Below, piece by piece: positions 9,415 to 44,995 of a DNA stretch of 64,000 nt. The notes under the pieces are model-generated. The model was not told the DNA's origin and did no database searches. It was given only the letters and a program-made list of their open reading frames with translations. Origin of the DNA: Salipaludibacillus daqingensis (GTDB lineage: Bacteria; Bacillota; Bacilli; Bacillales; Salisediminibacteriaceae); contig NZ_JARZHF010000011.1 in the NCBI RefSeq assembly GCF_029891575.1, positions 1 through 64,000 on the forward strand. Direction: 5' to 3'. The translations under genes and the position numbers were made by a program. Each line of letters starts with the position of its first letter. The stretch's first letter is position 1.

Positions 9415-9723
9415 AGTTATTACCCCGTTTCTTCATTCTGTTAATATTCTAAGATAGATTTATAGATACAGTTTAAGGCAGCTATTGAAGGTATCCCCTT
9501 TTAAATGCCTTCTATAACTCCTTCATAAGTCTTAATTTCAACAATAGCAAATCTATGATAAAAGTAACCGTTATTTTAAAAAAATAATGGTTCTCTTATC
9601 ATTCCATGCTTTTACAGAGCTTTAATAATCGAAATGTCATGAGAAAAAGTATCAGGTTTATCTGTAAAAAATGTTCACCATTTGATGATAATGCCCATAG
9701 GATACTGTGGAGGTGGATAAATA
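9415..9723. other. Intergenic region with a sporulation-type promoter at its right end
   Basis: AT-rich spacer between divergent genes. Apart from the sigma-K-like motif at 9677-9704 and a short run AATGGTTCTCTTATCATT that may be a decayed dispersed repeat, I see nothing. Confidence 0.4.
9677..9704 (+). promoter_or_regulatory. Sigma-K-like promoter motif before the spore-island operon
   Basis: AC (9677-9678), 17 bp, then CATAGGATA (9696-9704) fits the AC-N16/17-CATAnnnTA pattern of late mother-cell promoters. The implied start would fall at the ribosome site, only about 14 nt before the ATG, so the true promoter may be elsewhere. Confidence 0.4.
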
Positions 9724-10113
9724 ATGAGTATGCCAAATGTACCGAAACAACCTTATCGTCCTGACTTGGATCAAACAGTCATTGATCTTCTTGAATCCAT
9801 TGCCCTTGAAGAAATAGCATTATCTCACTTACTAAATGCTGAAGCTGAAAAGATCCAGACTTATCTGTGTAAATTTCTTAAATGTGAACACACAAATCAC
9901 AAGGAACTCATTTCCTTTAACAAAACGGTGAATAGTACATTAAGTACGATTGTCATGAAAGAATTTTTATTGCTACGTAAATTAGAAACAACGTTACAGA
10001 TCACCGATGACAAGGAAAAACCTGAAAAAGATAAAAAGCCTAAACCACCAAAGAAAAAATGTCCGCCACCTTGTCCGCCTGGTTGCAATTGTGAACATTG
10101 CAAAGAGGCATAA
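9724..10113 (+). CDS. Small Firmicutes protein with Pro/Lys/Cys-rich tail (putative spore protein)
   Basis: 129 residues. The N-terminal ~95 residues form a helical domain with the recurrent Firmicutes pattern SIALEEIALSHLLNAEAEKIQ, also present in the small gene at 10767-11069. The tail is unusual: KPKPPKKKCPPPCPPGCNC, with five cysteines, many prolines and lysines. I do not know a biochemical function. The neighbours (four YheC/YheD ATP-grasp genes) and the sigma-K-like motif suggest a coat-associated protein, and the Lys/Cys-rich tail could be a cross-linking or ligation acceptor; that is inference. The stop is 4 bp before the next start, so the two genes are co-transcribed. Confidence 0.75.
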   Translation: MSMPNVPKQPYRPDLDQTVIDLLESIALEEIALSHLLNAEAEKIQTYLCKFLKCEHTNHKELISFNKTVNSTLSTIVMKEFLLLRKLETTLQITDDKEKPEKDKKPKPPKKKCPPPCPPGCNCEHCKEA

Positions 10114-10117
10114 TATC

Positions 10118-10669
10118 ATGAATGCGTTACAAAATAACTGTCCAACGAGAGAACTTCTGTTGAAGTCAATCGAGGAACTTGAAACGTCCATTGTCCATTA
10201 TTTCGAGGTATCAGAAAAACTTATTCATGCAGCGCAATCAATTGGAAGCGACCAAAATAAAGCAGACAAACAGAAACTTATGAAAATTGTTCTCTGCTTA
10301 AACGCTTTTTTCCGTCATTTAAGAGAACTACAAAACTTGCTTTCACAAAAAAGAACGGTGATTATCTTTAACCTTTCTCAAGACCATCCCGTTGATGAAT
10401 TCGAAACTGACAAATTAAAGGAAAAAAATTTACTAAACCAACAAAAACTTATCACTTATGTACAAAGAAATCTTGATGTCATTTTCAACGAATTTCCGTT
10501 CCATCAAGAAATGCAGTTACTTACAGACCAACTAGAACAATTACTTGAATACTACAAACATAAAAAACAAACGATATATCTCTATGAAGAACAAACTTGC
10601 CCGGAACCAGCCCCACCTTTATTAAACATTCGTTCTGTTACAAATAAATCTAGAAAGAAAAAACAGTAA
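10118..10669 (+). CDS. Hypothetical helical protein, spore island
   Basis: 183 residues, no family recognised. Predicted strongly helical with Leu/Gln/Glu-rich stretches, and a basic end (TNKSRKKKQ). The N-terminus starts MNALQNNCPTRELLLKSIEEL. ATG 10118 follows AAAGAGG and lies 4 bp after the upstream gene's stop; the longer open frame back to 10007 overlaps that gene and is false. It probably acts with its operon partner in the same sporulation context. Confidence 0.75.
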   Translation: MNALQNNCPTRELLLKSIEELETSIVHYFEVSEKLIHAAQSIGSDQNKADKQKLMKIVLCLNAFFRHLRELQNLLSQKRTVIIFNLSQDHPVDEFETDKLKEKNLLNQQKLITYVQRNLDVIFNEFPFHQEMQLLTDQLEQLLEYYKHKKQTIYLYEEQTCPEPAPPLLNIRSVTNKSRKKKQ

Positions 10670-10686
10670 TATACGACCGCACTTTT

Positions 10687-10718
10687 GCATGAAAGGGAAA
10701 TGATCTTTCCCTTCATGC
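10687..10718. repeat. Inverted repeat between convergent spore-island genes
   Basis: GCATGAAAGGGAAA is mirrored by TTTCCCTTCATGC with a 5-nt loop. It has no T-run, so it is only a candidate bidirectional terminator. Confidence 0.4.
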
Positions 10719-10766
10719 ACAGGTTGCGATATACATACAGCGCATAGAAAATTTCATAGCTTTTAT

Positions 10767-11069
10767 CTACATTTCATCGGTGATTTCTTCTTCAATGAAA
10801 TCAAGCGTATCTTCAAGCTTGAATTGAAGTAGCATTTCTTTTTTAATCACATTTCGCAACATTCTTTCTACACTTCGATTCGTATCTAATAAATCTTCTA
10901 TTGTTGTGTCCTCATTTTTAATGACCCAAGAAAGCTTCTCCGCTTCTGTATTTATAATATGAGCTAGTGCCATTTCCTCCAACGCAATAGAAACTAAAAT
11001 AAGATTGATAACGTCTTCTCGTTCTAGATCAATAAATGGTGAATAATCAGGTAATTCCGGCATCCCCAT
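10767..11069 (-). CDS. Small protein related to the 9724-10113 product (putative spore protein)
   Basis: 100 residues. It carries the same core as the 9724 product, here SIALEEMALAHIINTEAEKL followed by SVERMLRNVIKKEMLLQFKLE, but lacks the Pro/Lys/Cys tail. Both begin M-x-MP. Function unknown; similar small proteins are widespread in spore-forming Firmicutes. ATG 11069 lies 8 nt after GGGAGG. A CATACGTTA motif upstream (11103-11111) looks like a sigma-E/sigma-K -10 element. It lies immediately downstream of the four ATP-grasp genes on the same strand, separated by a 130-bp gap. Confidence 0.75.
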   Translation of the reverse strand: MGMPELPDYSPFIDLEREDVINLILVSIALEEMALAHIINTEAEKLSWVIKNEDTTIEDLLDTNRSVERMLRNVIKKEMLLQFKLEDTLDFIEEEITDEM

Positions 11070-11102
11070 TATAAATGCCTCCCTTCAAATTAGAGTCATT
11101 TA

Positions 11103-11111
11103 TAACGTATG
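11103..11111 (-). promoter_or_regulatory. Sigma-E/K-like -10 element
   Basis: CATACGTTA on the minus strand, about 34 bp before the start of the gene at 10767-11069. It fits CATAnnnTA; no convincing -35 was found. Confidence 0.35.
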
Positions 11112-11199
11112 GGAACAACTAGCTATTTGCATGGGCGAATCACACCGGATTACAAAATAAATAAATCAATTTACCGTCACATTCATCAGTCAGCTAAAC

Positions 11200-12249
11200 T
11201 CATGATGCTATTCTTCTTTTATGAAACCAAACGGCGTGTTCAAAAAGGATCCGATAATGCTTACTGTTGAACTTGCTTCTATAAGGTCTAAAATTAGCTT
11301 CAATCAACAAAATATTATTATTTTTATCTACGGCAACATCCAGCCCAAGATCTATCATTTGAGGGTATTTCACTTCCATAACCTTGGCTACTTGTTTACA
11401 TGTTTGTTTTATTTCTTTTTTCGTCGCGTCATTAATTAACGGCTTCAAGTTAAATTTAAGCTTTCCACCTTGATCCTTATTCGTTACATTTAAACATTTA
11501 TCAGCCATTCTTGCGTACATCCCTGTAACTTGCCAACGACCTCGTTTATTTTTTTGCGTAAAAACTCTGAAATCAAACTTTTTCCCTTTATACTTTTTAC
11601 TGTCTATCGTTTCTTGCACAATAAATCTTTTTGGCTTCGGAAATCTAGAAGTGAAGTAAGGCTTGAGTGCTTTTTCAGAAATATCGGTGATTGTTTCTTT
11701 TGCACGGTTAATATGCGTCATTCGATAACCTCTGTTTGTTTTTTCTAAAACATAAATGTTTTTCCCTTTGCTACTATGTTTTGGTTTAATGTAAAGTTTA
11801 TGATAACGCTCCAACATTTTCGTCAATCTAGCATAGGATAACGTTGCTGTGGCGGGTAATAAAGCTTTCGTTTCATCCGCTGATGCTAAATAATCATGAA
11901 TCTTATATTTACCTCTGGCAGCATTCGTCATGACATTAAAGAACATCACATCATTCTTTTTTGTGAAATGATTTATATTTTTTATGCTGTCTTTTTTCTG
12001 TAGATAAGAATATCCTCGGTACAAATTCACTTGTGGGACTTGGACTAATTCATTTTTCCGTTTACCACTTGTATGGTAGTAAACGACTCCGTTGACTGTT
12101 CTTTTTTTTATCGACATACTCGTTATACTGTAAAAACAAATGTTCACATTATTTTCATCTGCTATATCTTCATAAAATCTTACGATAGGACCAGGTTTTC
12201 CTTTCTTAGCTTGCCTTATTAATTTGGAAGACAAAATAACCCCAATCAT
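11200..12249 (-). CDS. YheC/YheD-family ATP-grasp protein (1)
   Basis: 349 residues. The N-terminal ~100 residues follow the YheC/D pattern (MIGVILSSKL..., with VNLYRGYSY). An ATP-grasp fold follows, with the nucleotide-binding KPKHSSKGKNIYV near 155, FDFRVFTQ near 225 and the metal-ligand segment GLDVAVDKNNNILLIEAN near 302-319. YheC and YheD of B. subtilis are endospore coat-associated, and ATP-grasp enzymes typically ligate a carboxylate to an amine. The target here is unknown. ATG 12249 follows AAAGGAG. It is the last of four ATP-grasp genes on this strand, 71 bp from the one before it. Confidence 0.88.
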   Translation of the reverse strand: MIGVILSSKLIRQAKKGKPGPIVRFYEDIADENNVNICFYSITSMSIKKRTVNGVVYYHTSGKRKNELVQVPQVNLYRGYSYLQKKDSIKNINHFTKKNDVMFFNVMTNAARGKYKIHDYLASADETKALLPATATLSYARLTKMLERYHKLYIKPKHSSKGKNIYVLEKTNRGYRMTHINRAKETITDISEKALKPYFTSRFPKPKRFIVQETIDSKKYKGKKFDFRVFTQKNKRGRWQVTGMYARMADKCLNVTNKDQGGKLKFNLKPLINDATKKEIKQTCKQVAKVMEVKYPQMIDLGLDVAVDKNNNILLIEANFRPYRSKFNSKHYRILFEHAVWFHKRRIAS

Positions 12250-12320
12250 ATGATTGACTCCTTTCCCTTCATCAGCAATTCATGCCGCATAAATCATTCA
12301 AGAGTGAAAGGAAGACATCG

Positions 12321-13058
12321 TTACTTCTTTCCTTTCATCTCCATAATTCGATTAATCTGAGTTGGATCCTTCAAACTCCTAAAGCCCCCTAAAAGAGGCC
12401 ATCGATTCAATTCAAAAATGTAAAAAGCACCTTGTTGGTCCATACCAATATCTACACCAAATATTTTTTGTTCCGGAAAGCACTTCCCTAACGTTTCTGC
12501 TGCTGCTAGAGAAATTTGCTTTATGTCTTCCTCCACTGCCCCTTTCATTTCTTGTTGCATATCTACTTTTTTCAAAACCTCATCTAGTGTCAAGGCAGTG
12601 CCTTCACGACGACGATTAGTAACTTTGTACCCATCGCCTCCTTTACGAGCAAGAATACCAGTAATTTGCCAAGGCTTTTTTTTCGATTTTCTTTGGACAA
12701 TGATTCTAAAATCAAATGGTCTGCCATCTATTCTCGCTAGAGCTACTTCACGTTGGATAATAAACTTCCTATCACCAACTACTTTTTTCAAATAATGATA
12801 AAGTTGTTCTTGTGTTTGAAACGTCTTTTGTTTTTTATTAATATATACGCAATAATCAGGCTCCATTATTTCCACAAAATAAATACTATTACCTTGTTTA
12901 CCATTATTTGGTTTTACTACGATGGAATGATACTTCGTTAACATTTTCGTGAAATTTTCTTTACTCCACATCACGGTATCAGGGAGATATGGTCGTAATA
13001 ACGTATTTCTTTTCAGAGCTAAGTACATTTTATATTTATTTCTTCCCCATAGTCTCAC
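12321..13058 (-). CDS. YheC/YheD-family ATP-grasp protein (2), short form
   Basis: 245 residues. It lacks most of the N-terminal YheC/D domain and is essentially the ATP-grasp catalytic region: KPNNGKQGNSIYFVE near 50, FDFRIIVQRK near 118 and GVDIGMDQQGAFYIFELNRWP near 200-220. The Asn of the last motif normally helps hold Mg2+. It starts at GTG 13058, 6 bp after the stop of the next gene, whose end supplies the ribosome site AAAGGG; translational coupling is likely. The short form may be a stand-alone ligase or work with a partner that supplies the missing domain. Confidence 0.85.
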   Translation of the reverse strand: MRLWGRNKYKMYLALKRNTLLRPYLPDTVMWSKENFTKMLTKYHSIVVKPNNGKQGNSIYFVEIMEPDYCVYINKKQKTFQTQEQLYHYLKKVVGDRKFIIQREVALARIDGRPFDFRIIVQRKSKKKPWQITGILARKGGDGYKVTNRRREGTALTLDEVLKKVDMQQEMKGAVEEDIKQISLAAAETLGKCFPEQKIFGVDIGMDQQGAFYIFELNRWPLLGGFRSLKDPTQINRIMEMKGKK

Positions 13059-13064
13059 TCTCCC

Positions 13065-14285
13065 TCACCCTTTCTCCTTCAATTTTTCCCATTTTTCTTT
13101 CGACCATCGTTTGAAATCTTCCCATTTTTTTAAATCCGTTGCCATTATTTCTGATGATTGTTCCTTTTTCTCTTCTTCCTTTTTATTTACTAAATATTTT
13201 GAGTATGAAAGGATATTAATCATGACGTGATGAATTGCATGCTCACCAAAAGCTTTTTGGAGGGATACTTTTGCACTTTGGGAATTACATTCTATAAATT
13301 TAATTTCAAGATCTTTCGTTAATGCAAAGTCAATGCCGATCTCTGCAAAAACACCATATTTCCTCTCTGTATCTTCATAAACCATATATAAAAAATCCTC
13401 AATTTCCTGCTTTAATGCTACTTTTTTTTCCTTTGAAAACTTCAATAAATCAAATAATTTTTCTAATTTATAGGCATCTGAATGAATCGTCACAGGTGAG
13501 TTTTTCTTGCTCATTCTTGCACTAATTCCAGTAATATCAATTTCACCTTTCTTATTTCTTTGTAATTCTGCTCGTAAATCTAACCTTCTACCATCTAGCT
13601 CTAATAGATCGATCCCTTCTTGAACCATAAAATTTTTACCTTTATAAAACTTGTTAATAAAAGGAATCATGTCATCCATCGTTTTAAATCTCTTCGTTCG
13701 AATTCTTTGTTTCGAGTGGTTATAATATTTACATTTGTATAAATTATCGCGAACAATTTCAACACGAACAACTTGCTCTCCTTTTCTACCCGTAACCCCC
13801 TTCATGTAGACGTTCTGATGCTTTTTCAACATGTTAAATAAATGATCTGGTCGTCGATATAAAATCGTTTCCATCAAATAAGGTTTCAACCGTTTAACCT
13901 TGCCAAAATAATCGTATATTTCCCAATTTCCTAGCGGGACGGGATTTAACATGATGGTATCTCTCTTATGACATTGGTCTAGAAACGTATGGTAATGTTC
14001 TCTAAATTTTCTCGATGGCCCCCCGCGTCTATAAAGAACATCCGGATATGGAAACGATCCTGTCTTCCATGTTTTTTCTATAAAATCATAATAATAGCCT
14101 GTAATGGATTCCTCTATTAAATCGATATTTTTCACAGGAAAAAAATACACATTAAAATATACTTCTTTATTCGCTTCTGCTAACTGAACTAACCGATAAT
14201 GGGGTTGATTTTTTGACATTTCTCTCCAAGCTCTACTAGAAATTAAAACCCCAAAATAACCTGATAAATCCTTTTGTGAGATCAA
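13065..14285 (-). CDS. YheC/YheD-family ATP-grasp protein (3)
   Basis: 406 residues. The N-terminal domain carries FGVLISSRAW and the conserved PDVLYRRGGPSRKF segment. The ATP-grasp region shows YMKGVTGRKGEQVVRVE near 160, LDLRAELQRN near 230 and EIGIDFALTKDLEIKFIECN near 320. A charged coiled tail (KKEEEKKEQSS...EKWEKLKEKG) is unique among the four. It starts at TTG 14285 behind AAAGGATG. It is followed within 6 bp by ATP-grasp gene 2. The role is probably in spore coat maturation, by family and context; the substrate is unknown. Confidence 0.86.
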   Translation of the reverse strand: MISQKDLSGYFGVLISSRAWREMSKNQPHYRLVQLAEANKEVYFNVYFFPVKNIDLIEESITGYYYDFIEKTWKTGSFPYPDVLYRRGGPSRKFREHYHTFLDQCHKRDTIMLNPVPLGNWEIYDYFGKVKRLKPYLMETILYRRPDHLFNMLKKHQNVYMKGVTGRKGEQVVRVEIVRDNLYKCKYYNHSKQRIRTKRFKTMDDMIPFINKFYKGKNFMVQEGIDLLELDGRRLDLRAELQRNKKGEIDITGISARMSKKNSPVTIHSDAYKLEKLFDLLKFSKEKKVALKQEIEDFLYMVYEDTERKYGVFAEIGIDFALTKDLEIKFIECNSQSAKVSLQKAFGEHAIHHVMINILSYSKYLVNKKEEEKKEQSSEIMATDLKKWEDFKRWSKEKWEKLKEKG

Positions 14286-14458
14286 GATTTCTCATCCTTT
14301 CTTTTCCATTTTACTGATAGTGTATTAATAAAGAGTGCGTCAGTAACGGCTTAGAACACGATTGAGAAGAATTTCGTTTAAATCAAACGTTGTCCTATAG
14401 TTATCTCTCATTCATTTAAACCACTTCACCATGAAATAACAGGATAGTAGATGAATAC

Positions 14459-14488
14459 GCAAAAAAGGCCCCGAATAAAAATGGGACC
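14459..14488 (-). terminator. Rho-independent terminator after ATP-grasp gene 4
   Basis: On the minus strand GGTCCC pairs with GGGGCC (wobble pairs allowed) around a 10-nt loop, followed by six T, just after the stop at 14493. It would separate gene 4 from genes 3-1. Confidence 0.6.
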
Positions 14489-14492
14489 ATAA

Positions 14493-15836
14493 TCAACGAA
14501 TACCTTTTATTTTTTTACCTTTCCTCGGTTCAGGGAAGCCTGCTATACTCATTGCATACTTAAATGGAGTACCTTTTACCTTCCCAGCTAAGCTAGGATC
14601 TTCAACAGGATACACATTTCTTAAGTTCATTTCCAGAATCCACACATGTCGTTTTTTATCGACGACAAAGTCGATCGTAATATCCCCATAATGCCCAATT
14701 TCATCTACTTTTCGACAAGCTCGTTTACAGATTCGAATAATTTTTCGTTCTTGAGCGATGGCTTCTTCTTTACTTAACTTAAAAATCTGTTGCAACGCTT
14801 TTCTTCCATTCAACCAATAATCCAAACATCTCAAATTCGTAATAATACTTCCTTTATTAGATACTCGAGCTGTCATACCTGAAGACTTCCATTTATGATA
14901 TTGATTTTTTTGCATGTAAATGCGAAAATCAACATGTCTTGATTGATATCTTGTAGGTACACCTTGTTGAATCATGTACTGTCTTGAGCCGTTTATCCTC
15001 TTTTGCAAAAGTGAATACTCTTTAAGACGATGAACAGACTTTCTAGTGTTAACATCATCCTTTATATGAATTTTTGACTTACTTTTTTTCAAATTTATTA
15101 TTTTTTTCCCTTCTGATCCTCTAATAGGTTTTACGTAGATGATAGGATATTCACGAAGCATTTTATTTATTTGCTTCAGCTTTTCCAACTTTTTTGTTTC
15201 AGGAAGATGTTTTTTGAGATAAGAGTCAGGCGATAACCACTCCCACATTTCCCATTTGTTGAAAAAATACGAGTTAAACATTTTATCATTGGTCGATTCC
15301 ATCAAGAACTGATTCGTTTTTTTCGATAAAGGTACACGTTTGAACACGGCACCTGGAGAGGAAAACGTTGCTTTTTTCCATTTTAATTGATGATCATTTG
15401 TCACATTCGGTTGAAAATAGTATCCTCGTATTTTCTGTTTTTTCATATCAATCCCCTCTTCAGAGCAAACACAAATCATCCCTCTTTTCGGCACATATTG
15501 TTCTATTCGACGTTGTAAGTTATAAAGTCTTTTGTCTAATCTTTCATCATTATTCGCAGCAACCCACAATATCATCGGCCCTATATGCAATGAATTTTTA
15601 GCCACCTTGAACTCATAAGTGAGATCTTCTGGAATAAACACATTACCTTTCCATTTATCTGACAAGCAAACTTTATTATTTGAAAGCTTTTTCTTAAATT
15701 TAACTGTCAGTTTTTTGTTAAAAGAGCCAAAATGAAAGGTAATCTTATTGGAGAAAAGTTTATATTTACGCCGAAAGCTTAAAGGTAAATATATATCCAC
15801 ACCTTCCCTTGCGTTAACCCACTTTATTTTCAGCAT
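14493..15836 (-). CDS. YheC/YheD-family ATP-grasp protein (4), long form
   Basis: 447 residues, the full-length YheD-like layout. The N-terminal ~110 residues are beta-rich (YLPLSFRRKYKLFSNKITFHFG). A linker domain with GMICVCSEEGIDMKK... and FKRVPLSKKT follows, then the ATP-grasp fold with YVKPIRGSEGKKIIN near 240, VDFRIYMQKNQ near 300 and DITIDFVVDKKRHVWILEMN near 390. ATG 15836 follows AGAGGTGAG. The upstream CATATAATA (15862-15870) resembles a sigma-K -10. A terminator follows, so it is probably transcribed separately from genes 3-1. Confidence 0.88.
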   Translation of the reverse strand: MLKIKWVNAREGVDIYLPLSFRRKYKLFSNKITFHFGSFNKKLTVKFKKKLSNNKVCLSDKWKGNVFIPEDLTYEFKVAKNSLHIGPMILWVAANNDERLDKRLYNLQRRIEQYVPKRGMICVCSEEGIDMKKQKIRGYYFQPNVTNDHQLKWKKATFSSPGAVFKRVPLSKKTNQFLMESTNDKMFNSYFFNKWEMWEWLSPDSYLKKHLPETKKLEKLKQINKMLREYPIIYVKPIRGSEGKKIINLKKSKSKIHIKDDVNTRKSVHRLKEYSLLQKRINGSRQYMIQQGVPTRYQSRHVDFRIYMQKNQYHKWKSSGMTARVSNKGSIITNLRCLDYWLNGRKALQQIFKLSKEEAIAQERKIIRICKRACRKVDEIGHYGDITIDFVVDKKRHVWILEMNLRNVYPVEDPSLAGKVKGTPFKYAMSIAGFPEPRKGKKIKGIR

Positions 15837-15885: not shown

Positions 15886-16155
15886 GGAGTGGGTGGGGAA
15901 TGGGTGGGGAATGGGGACGGTTCTTATGCGGCAGACAATCCTTATCGCATAAAGAAAACTCTTTCCACACCAAAAACACCCGACATAATACGTTGTCGAG
16001 TGCTTCATAATTGAATGTGGAATGAGTGGGGAATGGGGACGGTTCTCGTTCGGCAAAATCCGCAAAGACCTTCTAACAAATGTCACGTTTCTCTTATGTT
16101 TCGTCGAGTAATAATGAGACATGAGAACCGTCCCCACTTATCACCCACTTATCAG
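15886..16155. repeat. Complex of three dispersed-repeat ends
   Basis: Two forward cores (about 15913 and 16034) each have a GTGGGGAATGGG-type tandem tail. One inverse core (about 16123-16134) ends in duplicated CACTTATCAC. The last tail overlaps the stop codon of the M20 peptidase gene. Open frames through this block (e.g. 15814-16137) are artefacts. Confidence 0.8.
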
Positions 16156-32133: not shown

Positions 32134-32165
32134 ATGTTGTAATCCAAAGGAAGGGAATGACTGAG

Positions 32166-33083
32166 ATGTATTATGCTCCAATAACGTATCCAAACCCTTA
32201 TTACCCTCATGTAAACACCCCAGTTTATAACACAAACGGGATGTCGCGAAACAGCCAAGGTAGCGACAAACAATTAATTGAAGATATTCTCGATGGCATT
32301 AAACGAGAAGCATCATCCATTGATCTATATCGCCAATTAGCCGATGCCGCGCCTAACGAAAGCCATAAGAATGACATTCTTCATGCTTTAGAAAACAAAA
32401 GAGGCCATTTAAATCAATTTACCAATCTATATTTCTCACTTACTGGAAAACAACCTGAGTACGAAACCGAAACAGAAACTTTTGATAGCTATAGTGAAGG
32501 GTTAGAAAAGGCCTACCAAGCAGATATGGAAGGATATGAAGAATTTCAACGTAGTGGTTTATCTACTCCATATCCTCAAGTTCAACACGCCTTTTTAATC
32601 GCTTCCAATGCGCAAAGAGAGATTGCTTCAAGGTTGGAATATTTAAATGCGGATGCTTCAAACGAGCAAACACATGGAGACTATGGGTCACAATCTTTTG
32701 TCGTTAACATGGAAGATGTTACGAAACAAAACGATAACTACCGCAGGGCTTTATGGACAGGTGAACATTTGCAATTGACGTTAATGAGTATCGAAGTTGG
32801 CGGCGACATCGGTTTAGAAGTGCATCCTAATCTTGATCAATTTCTACGTTTAGAACAAGGGCAAGGACTCGTGCAAATGGGTGACAGTGAAGATGATGTA
32901 GATTTTGAAGAACATGTCTATGCAGATTATGCGATCTTTGTTCCTGCCGGAAGGTGGCACAATCTAACGAATACAGGAAATGAACCTATCAAACTCTACT
33001 CTATCTATGCCCCACCTGAACATCCATTTGGTACCGTTCATGAAACAAAAGCGATTGCCATGGAAGCAGAAGAACACCACTAA
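32166..33083 (+). CDS. Ferritin-like/cupin fusion protein
   Basis: About 305 residues with two domains. Residues ~30-170 are a helical ferritin-like bundle (KREASSIDLYRQLADAAPNE, LENKRGHLNQF) related to the protein at 41756-42667. Residues ~180-300 are a single cupin barrel with EVHPNLDQFLRLEQG and PAGRWHNLTN, carrying histidines in both cupin motifs. The acid/His ligands in the helical part look incomplete, so oxidase activity is uncertain. The Tyr/Pro-rich N-terminus and the sigma-K-like promoter suggest a late mother-cell (coat) protein. ATG 32166 lies 9-10 nt after AAGGAAGGG. Confidence 0.8.
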   Translation: MYYAPITYPNPYYPHVNTPVYNTNGMSRNSQGSDKQLIEDILDGIKREASSIDLYRQLADAAPNESHKNDILHALENKRGHLNQFTNLYFSLTGKQPEYETETETFDSYSEGLEKAYQADMEGYEEFQRSGLSTPYPQVQHAFLIASNAQREIASRLEYLNADASNEQTHGDYGSQSFVVNMEDVTKQNDNYRRALWTGEHLQLTLMSIEVGGDIGLEVHPNLDQFLRLEQGQGLVQMGDSEDDVDFEEHVYADYAIFVPAGRWHNLTNTGNEPIKLYSIYAPPEHPFGTVHETKAIAMEAEEHH

Positions 33084-41755: not shown

Positions 41756-42667
41756 ATGTACTCAAATCAACCATTTGATGTGCCGTATAATTATCATTTT
41801 TATCGGACGGCGTCGGATAGTCAACTATTGAATGATATCCAAAAAGCTATGAATGCTGAGTATAGTGCTGTTACTTGTTATGATAAATTAGCCAACCTTG
41901 CACCATCACCAGAGGAAAGGAGCACCATACTTGAAATACAAACAGATGATAAAAGACATCTTGAGGAATTCAGTAAAATTTATACAAATTTATCAGGGAG
42001 TCAGCCATCTTATCAAATGACTGAAGAATGCCCAGAAAAATATAGAGAAGGTATTGAATTTGCCTTTAAAGATGAACAAGAAGCAGTCGATTTTTATTTA
42101 GACATCTCGGATAAAGCACAGGATATGACCATTAAAGATAGATTTCGGCGTGCAGCATTAGATGAACAAAATCACGCTGTTTGGTTTTTATTTTTTTTAA
42201 CAGAACATTCAAATGTAGCTAATCACCACCGACAAATGGAAAGTTATGGTGCTGAAGGAGCTTTAAGTGCTTCAACACTATCCTTACCTCAAATGTTGAC
42301 GTATGCCCTTCAGGACGAATACTTGGCCCAAGCAAGATATAACAACATAATCGAAACATTTGGCAACATAAGAACGTTTGTACAAATTAGAGATGCAGAA
42401 ATGAGACATATACGTGCATTATTACCACTTTTCGATCGTTATCAAGTACCATTACCAAATGATATTTCTCAATCCTTTGTTTCAACTCCAGAAAATATTA
42501 AGGCAGCCTATGCTGAAGGCGTTCAAGGAGAAATAGAAAACATAGCTATGTACGATCGATTTTTATCCGTAAGTATCCCTAATGATGTAAGAGTTGTCTT
42601 TACCCAACTACGAAATGCCTCTATAAACCATTTAGCAGCATTTGAAAGAGGGCTTGCTAGAAATTAA
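41756..42667 (+). CDS. Ferritin-like protein with three helical modules
   Basis: 303 residues. Module A (about 20-90: MNAEYSAVTCYDKLANLAPS, TDDKRHLEEF) matches the helical part of the ferritin-cupin protein at 32166. Module B (about 100-155) has DEQEAVDFYLD and DEQNHAVWF. Module C (about 180-300) has QDEYLAQARYNNI and AEMRHIRAL, like DUF2202 rubrerythrin-type domains. The paired E and ExxH motifs in B and C could bind di-iron. The Tyr/Asn-rich N-terminus and a sigma-K-like -10 suggest a coat or late-sporulation role. Ribosome site AAGGAGG, 7 nt before ATG 41756. Confidence 0.8.
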   Translation: MYSNQPFDVPYNYHFYRTASDSQLLNDIQKAMNAEYSAVTCYDKLANLAPSPEERSTILEIQTDDKRHLEEFSKIYTNLSGSQPSYQMTEECPEKYREGIEFAFKDEQEAVDFYLDISDKAQDMTIKDRFRRAALDEQNHAVWFLFFLTEHSNVANHHRQMESYGAEGALSASTLSLPQMLTYALQDEYLAQARYNNIIETFGNIRTFVQIRDAEMRHIRALLPLFDRYQVPLPNDISQSFVSTPENIKAAYAEGVQGEIENIAMYDRFLSVSIPNDVRVVFTQLRNASINHLAAFERGLARN

Positions 42668-43966: not shown

Positions 43967-44995
43967 TTAATAACCTCCAATAAATGATTCTTTATGTTTA
44001 TTTGCTAATTCATCACGGTCCAGCGCCCTCGGTGGTTCTTCTAGCCAGCCATACTTAATCATCATTTTAGTCCCATCATCAGCAAACTTTAAGATTTCAC
44101 CTATCAGCCTACTGTACATGACTCCAATGTCTCTTCTTGGACTCGCTGATATACTGGCACCGTAATACCCAACACTAAGTGACGTTAAGAGTGTAACGTA
44201 AAATAACATTTTTTTGTCAGAAAATGTGTATGTCGTTGAATCTGTCACTTCAGCACCCCACGTCGCAGGACTTGGCAGATCATGTTCATTTAAATAATTT
44301 CCAAATATCTCACAATGCTTTTGTGCTATTTCTTTTCCTCTTAAAATATAGTCAGTGACATCACTCTTATTTGCAACTTGACTATACCCAATCATAGTGG
44401 CTGATCCTAGTGCATTTCGTTGGAAGTTGGCATATAAATTCGTAATTTCAGTTCCCAATAATGGTCTTTTATCCCCGAAGTACCCCGCAAGAAAACTTTT
44501 CTTTTTTACAAAATCAACGTTTTCAGGTGTTGGAAGATAGGGCGACTTACTATATAAACCCTTAGATAACATGACTTCATTCGTTTGTCTTATAATCTCA
44601 TCTGATTCCCTTAAACAATTACTAAAAAAATGATAAACATCATCTCTTACTGCAAAAGGTAATGCTGTACTATATGCACACAGACCAGTTTTACCTAGAA
44701 TATTTGTAGCAATTAAAGCATAGCTATCAGAAAATAACCTCGGAGCACGAACATCTACATCTTCATTCAACTTGAAGCCATATGGAACGGGATAATTTTC
44801 TTTTTTTAGTATGTCTGTTATTTTTTTAATATGCGATTTTGATATTTCTAAAGCATGTAGGATCAAAGGTTTTATTTCTTCATCCTCAGCATTGTGTAAT
44901 TCGTGTTCTAAATGACAAATGGCACCAGTATCATTCATATACGTATTCCACAAATAGGTTAATTCAGCAGAAGTTAATCTCAATTTTCCAACCAT
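43967..44995 (-). CDS. DUF3231 family protein
   Basis: 342 residues made of two similar helical halves (about 1-165 and 180-340), each starting with LTSAELTYLWNTY- or LLGTEITNLYANF-type helices and containing a central ALPFAVRDD / TLLTSLSVGYYGASI stretch. This internal duplication is characteristic of DUF3231, a Bacillaceae family of unknown function often encoded in several copies. No signal peptide. ATG 44995 follows GGAGGAGG at about 12 nt. Confidence 0.8.
   Translation of the reverse strand: MVGKLRLTSAELTYLWNTYMNDTGAICHLEHELHNAEDEEIKPLILHALEISKSHIKKITDILKKENYPVPYGFKLNEDVDVRAPRLFSDSYALIATNILGKTGLCAYSTALPFAVRDDVYHFFSNCLRESDEIIRQTNEVMLSKGLYSKSPYLPTPENVDFVKKKSFLAGYFGDKRPLLGTEITNLYANFQRNALGSATMIGYSQVANKSDVTDYILRGKEIAQKHCEIFGNYLNEHDLPSPATWGAEVTDSTTYTFSDKKMLFYVTLLTSLSVGYYGASISASPRRDIGVMYSRLIGEILKFADDGTKMMIKYGWLEEPPRALDRDELANKHKESFIGGY

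Follow-up and report, generated by a model that had tools for sequence, protein, structure and literature searches.

The stretch analysed here, called the window, comprises the 64,000 nucleotides (nt) at positions 1 to 64,000 of contig NZ_JARZHF010000011.1 of Salipaludibacillus daqingensis. We investigated a group of seven genes within it, encoding three small proteins, named A, B and C below, and four ATP-grasp ligases of the YheC/YheD type (YheC/D; Pfam family PF14398, ATPgrasp_YheCD, here YheCD). A and B are relatives of the subunit of a spore fibre, the A-ENA type of endospore appendage (ENA), which is represented in the PDB by entry 9ihh. The genes fall into two opposed groups, with B and C on the plus strand and A and the four ligases on the minus strand. 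The genome measures 4.58 Mb in 27 contigs and holds eight PF14398 genes in all, four of them at 11200–15836. From left to right the locus shows the following features:

9677..9703 (+): sigma-K-like promoter of the B-C unit, AC-N17-CATAGGAT, 47 nt upstream of the ATG of B
9724..10113 (+): B, A-ENA-domain protein of 129 amino acids (aa) with a Lys/Pro/Cys tail, putative fibre anchor; phmmer match to 9ihh_A
10118..10669 (+): C, helical protein of 183 aa with a PEPAPPL motif near the C-terminus, putative accessory protein
10678..10728 (no strand assigned): hairpin separating C from A, whose genes converge on it, probably a terminator for both directions; found by folding
10767..11069 (-): A, putative A-ENA-type fibre subunit of 100 aa with an acidic C-terminus; phmmer and model matches to 9ihh_A
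11200..12249 (-): YheC/D-type ATP-grasp ligase of 349 aa, PF14398 E 2.6e-54, catalytic residues kept
12321..13058 (-): YheC/D-type ATP-grasp ligase of 245 aa without the N-terminal domain, PF14398 E 5.6e-57
13065..14285 (-): YheC/D-type ATP-grasp ligase of 406 aa with a long C-terminal helix and a TTG start, PF14398 E 2.6e-58
14493..15836 (-): YheC/D-type ATP-grasp ligase of 447 aa, PF14398 E 2e-58, sigma-K-like pattern upstream

An earlier, sequence-only reading had described this island as four non-identical ATP-grasp open reading frames (ORFs) in a row, accompanied by two related small proteins, one of which ends in a Lys/Pro/Cys-rich tail, and by a third helical protein. These elements were recovered, with two corrections. 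The third protein is real, but its listed ORF (start at 10007, 220 aa) begins too early, the likely start being the ATG at 10118, 4 nt after the B gene. The four ligase genes do lie in a row on the minus strand, that of the 245-aa ligase starting 6 nt after the next gene upstream, which encodes the 406-aa ligase; the island as a whole, however, consists of two opposed groups with the hairpin between them. The hairpin at about 10678–10728 folds with -26.4 kcal/mol (z -6.2), a value reached by none of 200 shuffles; it is seen by folding and is absent from the output of a gap-free repeat finder.

A and B are 39% identical to each other. A profile of 85 members of the A/B family returned one strong match in the PDB, chain 9ihh_A, with E 1.5e-30. 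The entry, released on 2026-03-04, is entitled "Ex vivo spore-silk A-ENA fibers". In phmmer comparisons A aligned with 9ihh_A start to start and nearly end to end (E 8.1e-22, 52% identity), and the match of B spans the whole domain (E 2.2e-13, 41% identity). Homology to the fibre subunit thus extends over the whole domain in both proteins. The model of A, with a predicted local distance difference test score (pLDDT) of 93, consists of two long helices; when it was compared with PDB folds, 9ihh_A was the sole match under E 0.001, with template modelling (TM) scores of 0.75/0.80, and A in its predicted structure has the fold of the 9ihh subunit. In scans of A, B and C, no family of Pfam or NCBIfam scored above its cut-off. 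Octopine_DH, PapB, GalU, DUF6267 and similar weak matches of the three proteins lie below cut-off and were rejected as chance. A literature search with motif strings of the A-ENA domain gave no match, and the terms 'A-ENA' and 'spore silk' led, by the titles among the matches listed, to unrelated papers only.

Loci of this kind are already represented by the PDB entry of 2026, and their genes are now found to be widespread in Bacilli and present in Clostridia. The family is large: among the matches listed, a relative is encoded in at least 544 of 599 pattern-matched stretches. Frequently the A-ENA domain forms the N-terminal part of a longer, partly collagen-like protein. At least 12 G-x-x repeats were counted in 37 of 83 long A-ENA-domain proteins, and among eight hand-chosen ones Pfam Collagen was found in five and BclA_C in one over cut-off and in one more below it. 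According to an excerpt of PMC11952670, a collagen-like tip fibril forms the end of published ENA types, an exception being noted there for a Paenibacillaceae type; the collagen-carrying domain plan of the A-ENA family fits this arrangement. The genome also encodes a third A-ENA-domain protein (246 aa; L010 1069–1809, contig C3; L numbers denote compared regions and G numbers genomes), which carries a long C-terminal part of unassigned kind and lies near a gene that is smpB-like by eye.

The last 41 residues of B contain 10 Lys, 9 Pro and 5 Cys. The anchor of the S-ENA type, Ena1C, is similar to the fibre subunit; its gene runs in the opposite direction, and its linker contains conserved Cys and Pro residues (excerpt of PMC12921279). 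Since B is likewise a Cys/Pro-tailed relative of a fibre subunit, it is by analogy a likely fibre anchor whose Cys/Pro/Lys tail would lead to the coat. Salipaludibacillus aurantiacus encodes a relative of protein C in the corresponding position (L013; phmmer E 1.3e-21), and other A-B loci hold C-like genes as judged by position and a weak profile match. A PEPAPPLxxI-type motif at the end of C is kept in L013, L120, L124 and L159, much of the remainder diverging; this motif could be a docking peptide. Because A and B match 9ihh_A, the model of A does so too and the tail of B is anchor-like, the part at 9.7–11.1 kb is best read, on these sequence and model comparisons, as an A-ENA-type endospore-appendage locus. 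It seems, then, that the small proteins are components of a spore hair and not mere substrates of the enzymes, but they may still be modified by the ligases. The relevance to spores assumed by the sequence-only reading is borne out by this relationship. The small proteins are of a known kind, since the structure of the fibre formed by a homologue has been solved.

All four ligases match PF14398 with E-values of 2.6e-54 to 2e-58 and 185–198 bits, as compared with a cut-off of 26.8 bits, and the other three are 21–22% identical to the 406-aa ligase. In an alignment of 13 paralogues the residues K162, G169, Q222, D236, R238, D319, E332 and N334 are invariant, and the late D, E and N presumably stand at the metal-binding positions of ATP-grasp enzymes. 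Judged by these residues, all four ligases look intact and active. The 245-aa form is not an assembly error, since the short form recurs in L120, L121, L122, L124 and L129. NCBIfam gave no model over cut-off for any of the seven proteins, and by this measure the island does not belong to the graspetide clusters. As a single-sequence search of the PDB with one ligase yielded nothing up to E 1, folds were compared by way of a model of the 406-aa ligase (pLDDT 95.7). Closest are 7mgv, a ligase associated with ribosomally synthesised and post-translationally modified peptides (RiPPs), D-Ala ligases, and PsnB with other graspetide ligases; further close folds are ArgX/LysX, RimK and tubulin tyrosine ligase. 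The nearest folds are carboxylate-amine ligases acting on amino acids, peptides or proteins, the class of chemistry that had been assumed beforehand.

For a ligase tree, 199 sequences were reduced to 165 by similarity and to 122 by thinning the canonical clusters; 44 of its 119 inner branches have a support under 80. The ligases encoded next to A appear in it as two separate groups of single-domain proteins and as the two domains of a fused form. Such fused double YheC/D ligases adjoin A-ENA genes in at least two bacterial families (L054 7184–10042, L159 7185–9911, L199 6127–8643 and L203 1503–4337), and their N- and C-terminal ATP-grasp domains fall into separate tree groups. Elsewhere in the genome of S. 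daqingensis (L137 1395–10247, contig C6) a capsule-like locus encodes an Asp/Glu racemase and four proteins that each combine a RimK-like ATP-grasp domain with an acylphosphatase domain, a YheC/D ligase being encoded between these four; it is possibly a peptide-polymer pathway.

Upstream regions were searched with a strict pattern built on what we take to be the sigma-K consensus. A match within 100 nt upstream was present at 20 of 118 YheCD genes, as compared with 52 of 1494 other genes and 1.5–2.0% of shuffled sequences. The corresponding counts are 30/132 for short A-domain genes, 17/51 for B genes and 16/79 for long A-domain genes. In six of seven B loci compared the pattern lies at -46 to -49 (-47 in the window), two of the six being nearly identical; the B locus of L014 is without it. 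A further match starts 54 nt upstream of the gene for the 447-aa ligase (14493–15836). We infer mother-cell expression of the ligases.

We then assessed how A-ENA and YheCD genes are associated across genomes. A-ENA genes were detected with a model, A3, built from B proteins, so that a genome whose A-ENA genes are all distant ones may have been scored as negative. Forty regions were chosen by hand, and the YheCD matches in relatives are those among the matches listed; regions L180, L187, L195 and L201 are shorter than the others. In a draw across the class, 26 of the 34 other A3-positive genomes were taken in, the loci of G045, G060, G068, G100, G114, G128, G149 and G229 being left out; G009 was taken from the relatives and not from this draw. 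Spo0A_C was present in 34 of 35 A3-positive genomes versus 172 of 214 other genomes of the draw.

Within the family of the window, A-ENA genes occur in six of 35 genomes, and YheCD adjoins them in all six. At 45% identity and 60% coverage in the compared stretches, flanking genes are common only to L120 and L121 and to no other pair, which leaves five contexts; since the adjacency holds across all five, the A-ENA and ligase sets have stayed together in changed surroundings. By a hand estimate from coordinates, a random point in the genome has a chance of about 1.8% of being no more than 10 kb away from YheCD. Separate ligase groups adjoin A in other lineages (L015, L054, L203 and the Paenibacillus regions L023, L030 and L032). 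Among the 78 loci closest to the query, YheCD lies within the compared stretch in seven; around the 26 class-wide best-hit A-ENA loci there is no YheCD at a distance of up to about 10 kb. Among the genomes concerned, G077 combines a best-hit locus lacking YheCD with a second A-ENA locus (L203), where a fused YheCD gene stands 72–86 nt away from two A genes. PF14398 is absent altogether from six of 27 A-ENA-positive genomes. The whole orthologous ligase tetrad occurs in G019 (L129), and G004 (L122) holds at least three of the four tetrad types together with a further ligase of 361 aa, both genomes being without an A3 match; relatives commonly show YheCD expansions with no A-ENA close by (L122/L123, L129, L131/L132, L142 and L143).

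A-ENA and YheCD are thus genuinely linked, but only in certain lineages, and either set can exist without its partner: YheCD is missing from the class-wide best-hit loci, PF14398 from some A-ENA-positive genomes, and A-ENA from genomes that carry the tetrad or most of it. The co-occurrence of small protein and YheC/D expected by the sequence-only reading holds in the family and fails across the class, and for the same reasons the data do not describe a dedicated system of YheCD and small protein, or a general pair of enzyme and substrate. By titles and the beginnings of abstracts among the matches listed, the literature held no report joining an A-ENA-type locus with ATP-grasp ligases.

In a search for features that go with the ligases, the C-termini of A proteins were compared across loci. 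RimK and tubulin-modifying ligases use an acidic C-terminus of this sort as their acceptor. All ten A proteins encoded within 1 kb of YheCD carry at least six acidic residues among their last 12, versus 7 of 96 others (Fisher 6e-10); the test is exploratory, its threshold having been set after looking. With the rows of L199 and L203 added and a looser limit on tail length the counts become 11/13 versus 9/112, the YheCD-adjacent A of L199 having only three acidic residues in its tail. The seven acidic A proteins not adjacent to YheCD in the first count are all from Paenibacillus, and a tree-based control gave one supported independent pair, so that shared ancestry of the acidic tails is possible. 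Acidic tails beside YheCD fit a tail modification like that by RimK or tubulin tyrosine ligase, without proving it.

We propose, with a probability of about 0.7, that the island joins an A-ENA-type appendage locus to a lineage-specific tetrad of intact YheC/D ligases that act on the spore envelope. A would form the fibre, the Cys/Pro/Lys tail of B would anchor it to the coat and C would serve the appendage locus as an accessory protein. The tetrad at 11.2–15.8 kb would be made by the mother cell and carry out carboxylate-amine ligation on the spore envelope, the A-ENA proteins being one candidate among several for its substrate. Several points weigh against this proposal. Upstream of A in the window there is only a -10-like element and no full sigma-K pattern. 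Fibre formation in S. daqingensis is a prediction from its genes. B proteins of Paenibacillaceae are mostly without a Cys tail, and many have an acidic tail instead, so an anchor role may not be general; relatives of C are known only from A-B loci. Finally, in a tree without a named Bacillus subtilis sequence, the ligases of the window fall into none of the clades formed by the canonical four-gene YheC/D clusters that relatives carry, and knowledge of YheC/D from B. subtilis may for this reason not carry over.

What the ligases modify is a separate matter. They might work on the fibre itself, adding amino acids to the acidic C-terminus of A, in the manner of RimK and tubulin-ligase-type enzymes, or linking this terminus by isopeptide bonds to Lys residues in the tail of B, and in this way tether or harden the fibre in these lineages. 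Such a role would suit the adjacency in all six A-ENA-positive genomes and five contexts of the family, the separate ligase groups found beside A in other lineages, the ten acidic tails out of ten, and the nearness of the fold to RiPP ligases, ArgX/LysX, RimK and tubulin tyrosine ligase. It is nevertheless unlikely in our judgement, given that class-wide best-hit loci (0/26) and six of 27 A-ENA-positive genomes do without the enzymes, that the tetrad exists without A-ENA, and that the acidity result depends on a post hoc threshold, includes the non-acidic tail of L199 and, with the seven non-adjacent acidic tails of the first count all from Paenibacillus, yields a single supported pair once the tree is taken into account. 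Still less credible is the acceptor originally favoured, the Lys/Cys tail of B or its Glu-rich core, which we consider very improbable. Its Lys-rich KKxCPP-type form was found in only six B genes (the window, L013, L015, L120, L124 and L159), all at YheCD loci, but these six are closely related, and the B genes at the YheCD loci L023, L030, L032 and L199 lack it. Tails with at least three Cys occur in 6 of 10 B genes at loci with YheCD versus 10 of 41 at loci without (p 0.054), for which an anchor as in S-ENA is the better explanation; the conserved Glu-rich core belongs to the A-ENA fold, and that family is mostly found without YheCD.

The odds appear roughly even that the linkage reflects a shared neighbourhood of spore genes or a co-transferred island, with the ligases acting elsewhere, for example on a peptide-bearing polysaccharide or another coat protein. 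The frequent YheCD expansions of relatives that have no A-ENA nearby agree with this, as does another YheCD gene of the genome, in the capsule-like locus beside RimK-like proteins and an Asp/Glu racemase. It is harder to reconcile with an adjacency that is kept in five family contexts and recurs in separate lineages, when a random point would be so close to YheCD in about 1.8% of cases.

To our knowledge, no substrate of a YheC/D enzyme is known so far. If the ligases did act on the fibre, this would provide the first one and add an enzymatic step to ENA assembly, the product being a spore hair tethered or hardened by covalent bonds. The fibres of endospore appendages are highly resistant, and their anchoring and hardening are an active question. 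A family that keeps both gene sets together across surroundings offers a small testable system for ENA anchoring and for the function of YheD.

Outside the island, the 12-mer GGGGACGGTTCT occurs in 19 copies on both strands of the window between 5007 and 41562, where shuffled sequences give an expectation of 0, and a longer form of 21 bases occurs in 13 copies at up to three mismatches. Three copies adjoining the ligase cluster (15913–16135) belong to this dispersed repeat. The ORFs at 32157–33083, 41756–42667 and 43967–44995 resemble, by eye, ferritin-like spore or stress proteins.

Compared with known systems, the ligases share Pfam family PF14398 with YheC and YheD of B. subtilis, and expression in the spore phase is likely for them; in the tree described above they are divergent paralogues outside the canonical-cluster clades. 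An excerpt of PMC7911427 describes B. subtilis YheD as a spore-envelope protein that surrounds the spore and whose function is reported as undetermined. RimK, ArgX/LysX, tubulin tyrosine ligase and the graspetide ligases are among the best structural neighbours, yet their identity is 8–14% in the listed matches. The A-ENA fibre of 9ihh corresponds most closely to protein A, with the same domain length, an alignment from start to start at 52% identity and the only strong fold match; in the locus of S. daqingensis it is accompanied by the Cys-tailed paralogue B, protein C and the linked ATP-grasp ligases. With S-ENA, as described in the excerpt of PMC12921279, it shares a plan in which a fibre subunit is accompanied by a structurally related protein that is encoded in the opposite direction and extended by a Cys/Pro-rich segment. 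The two differ in fold, with two long helices in the model of A and beta-sheet subunits in S-ENA, and in the place of the extension, which is C-terminal in B and N-terminal in Ena1C.

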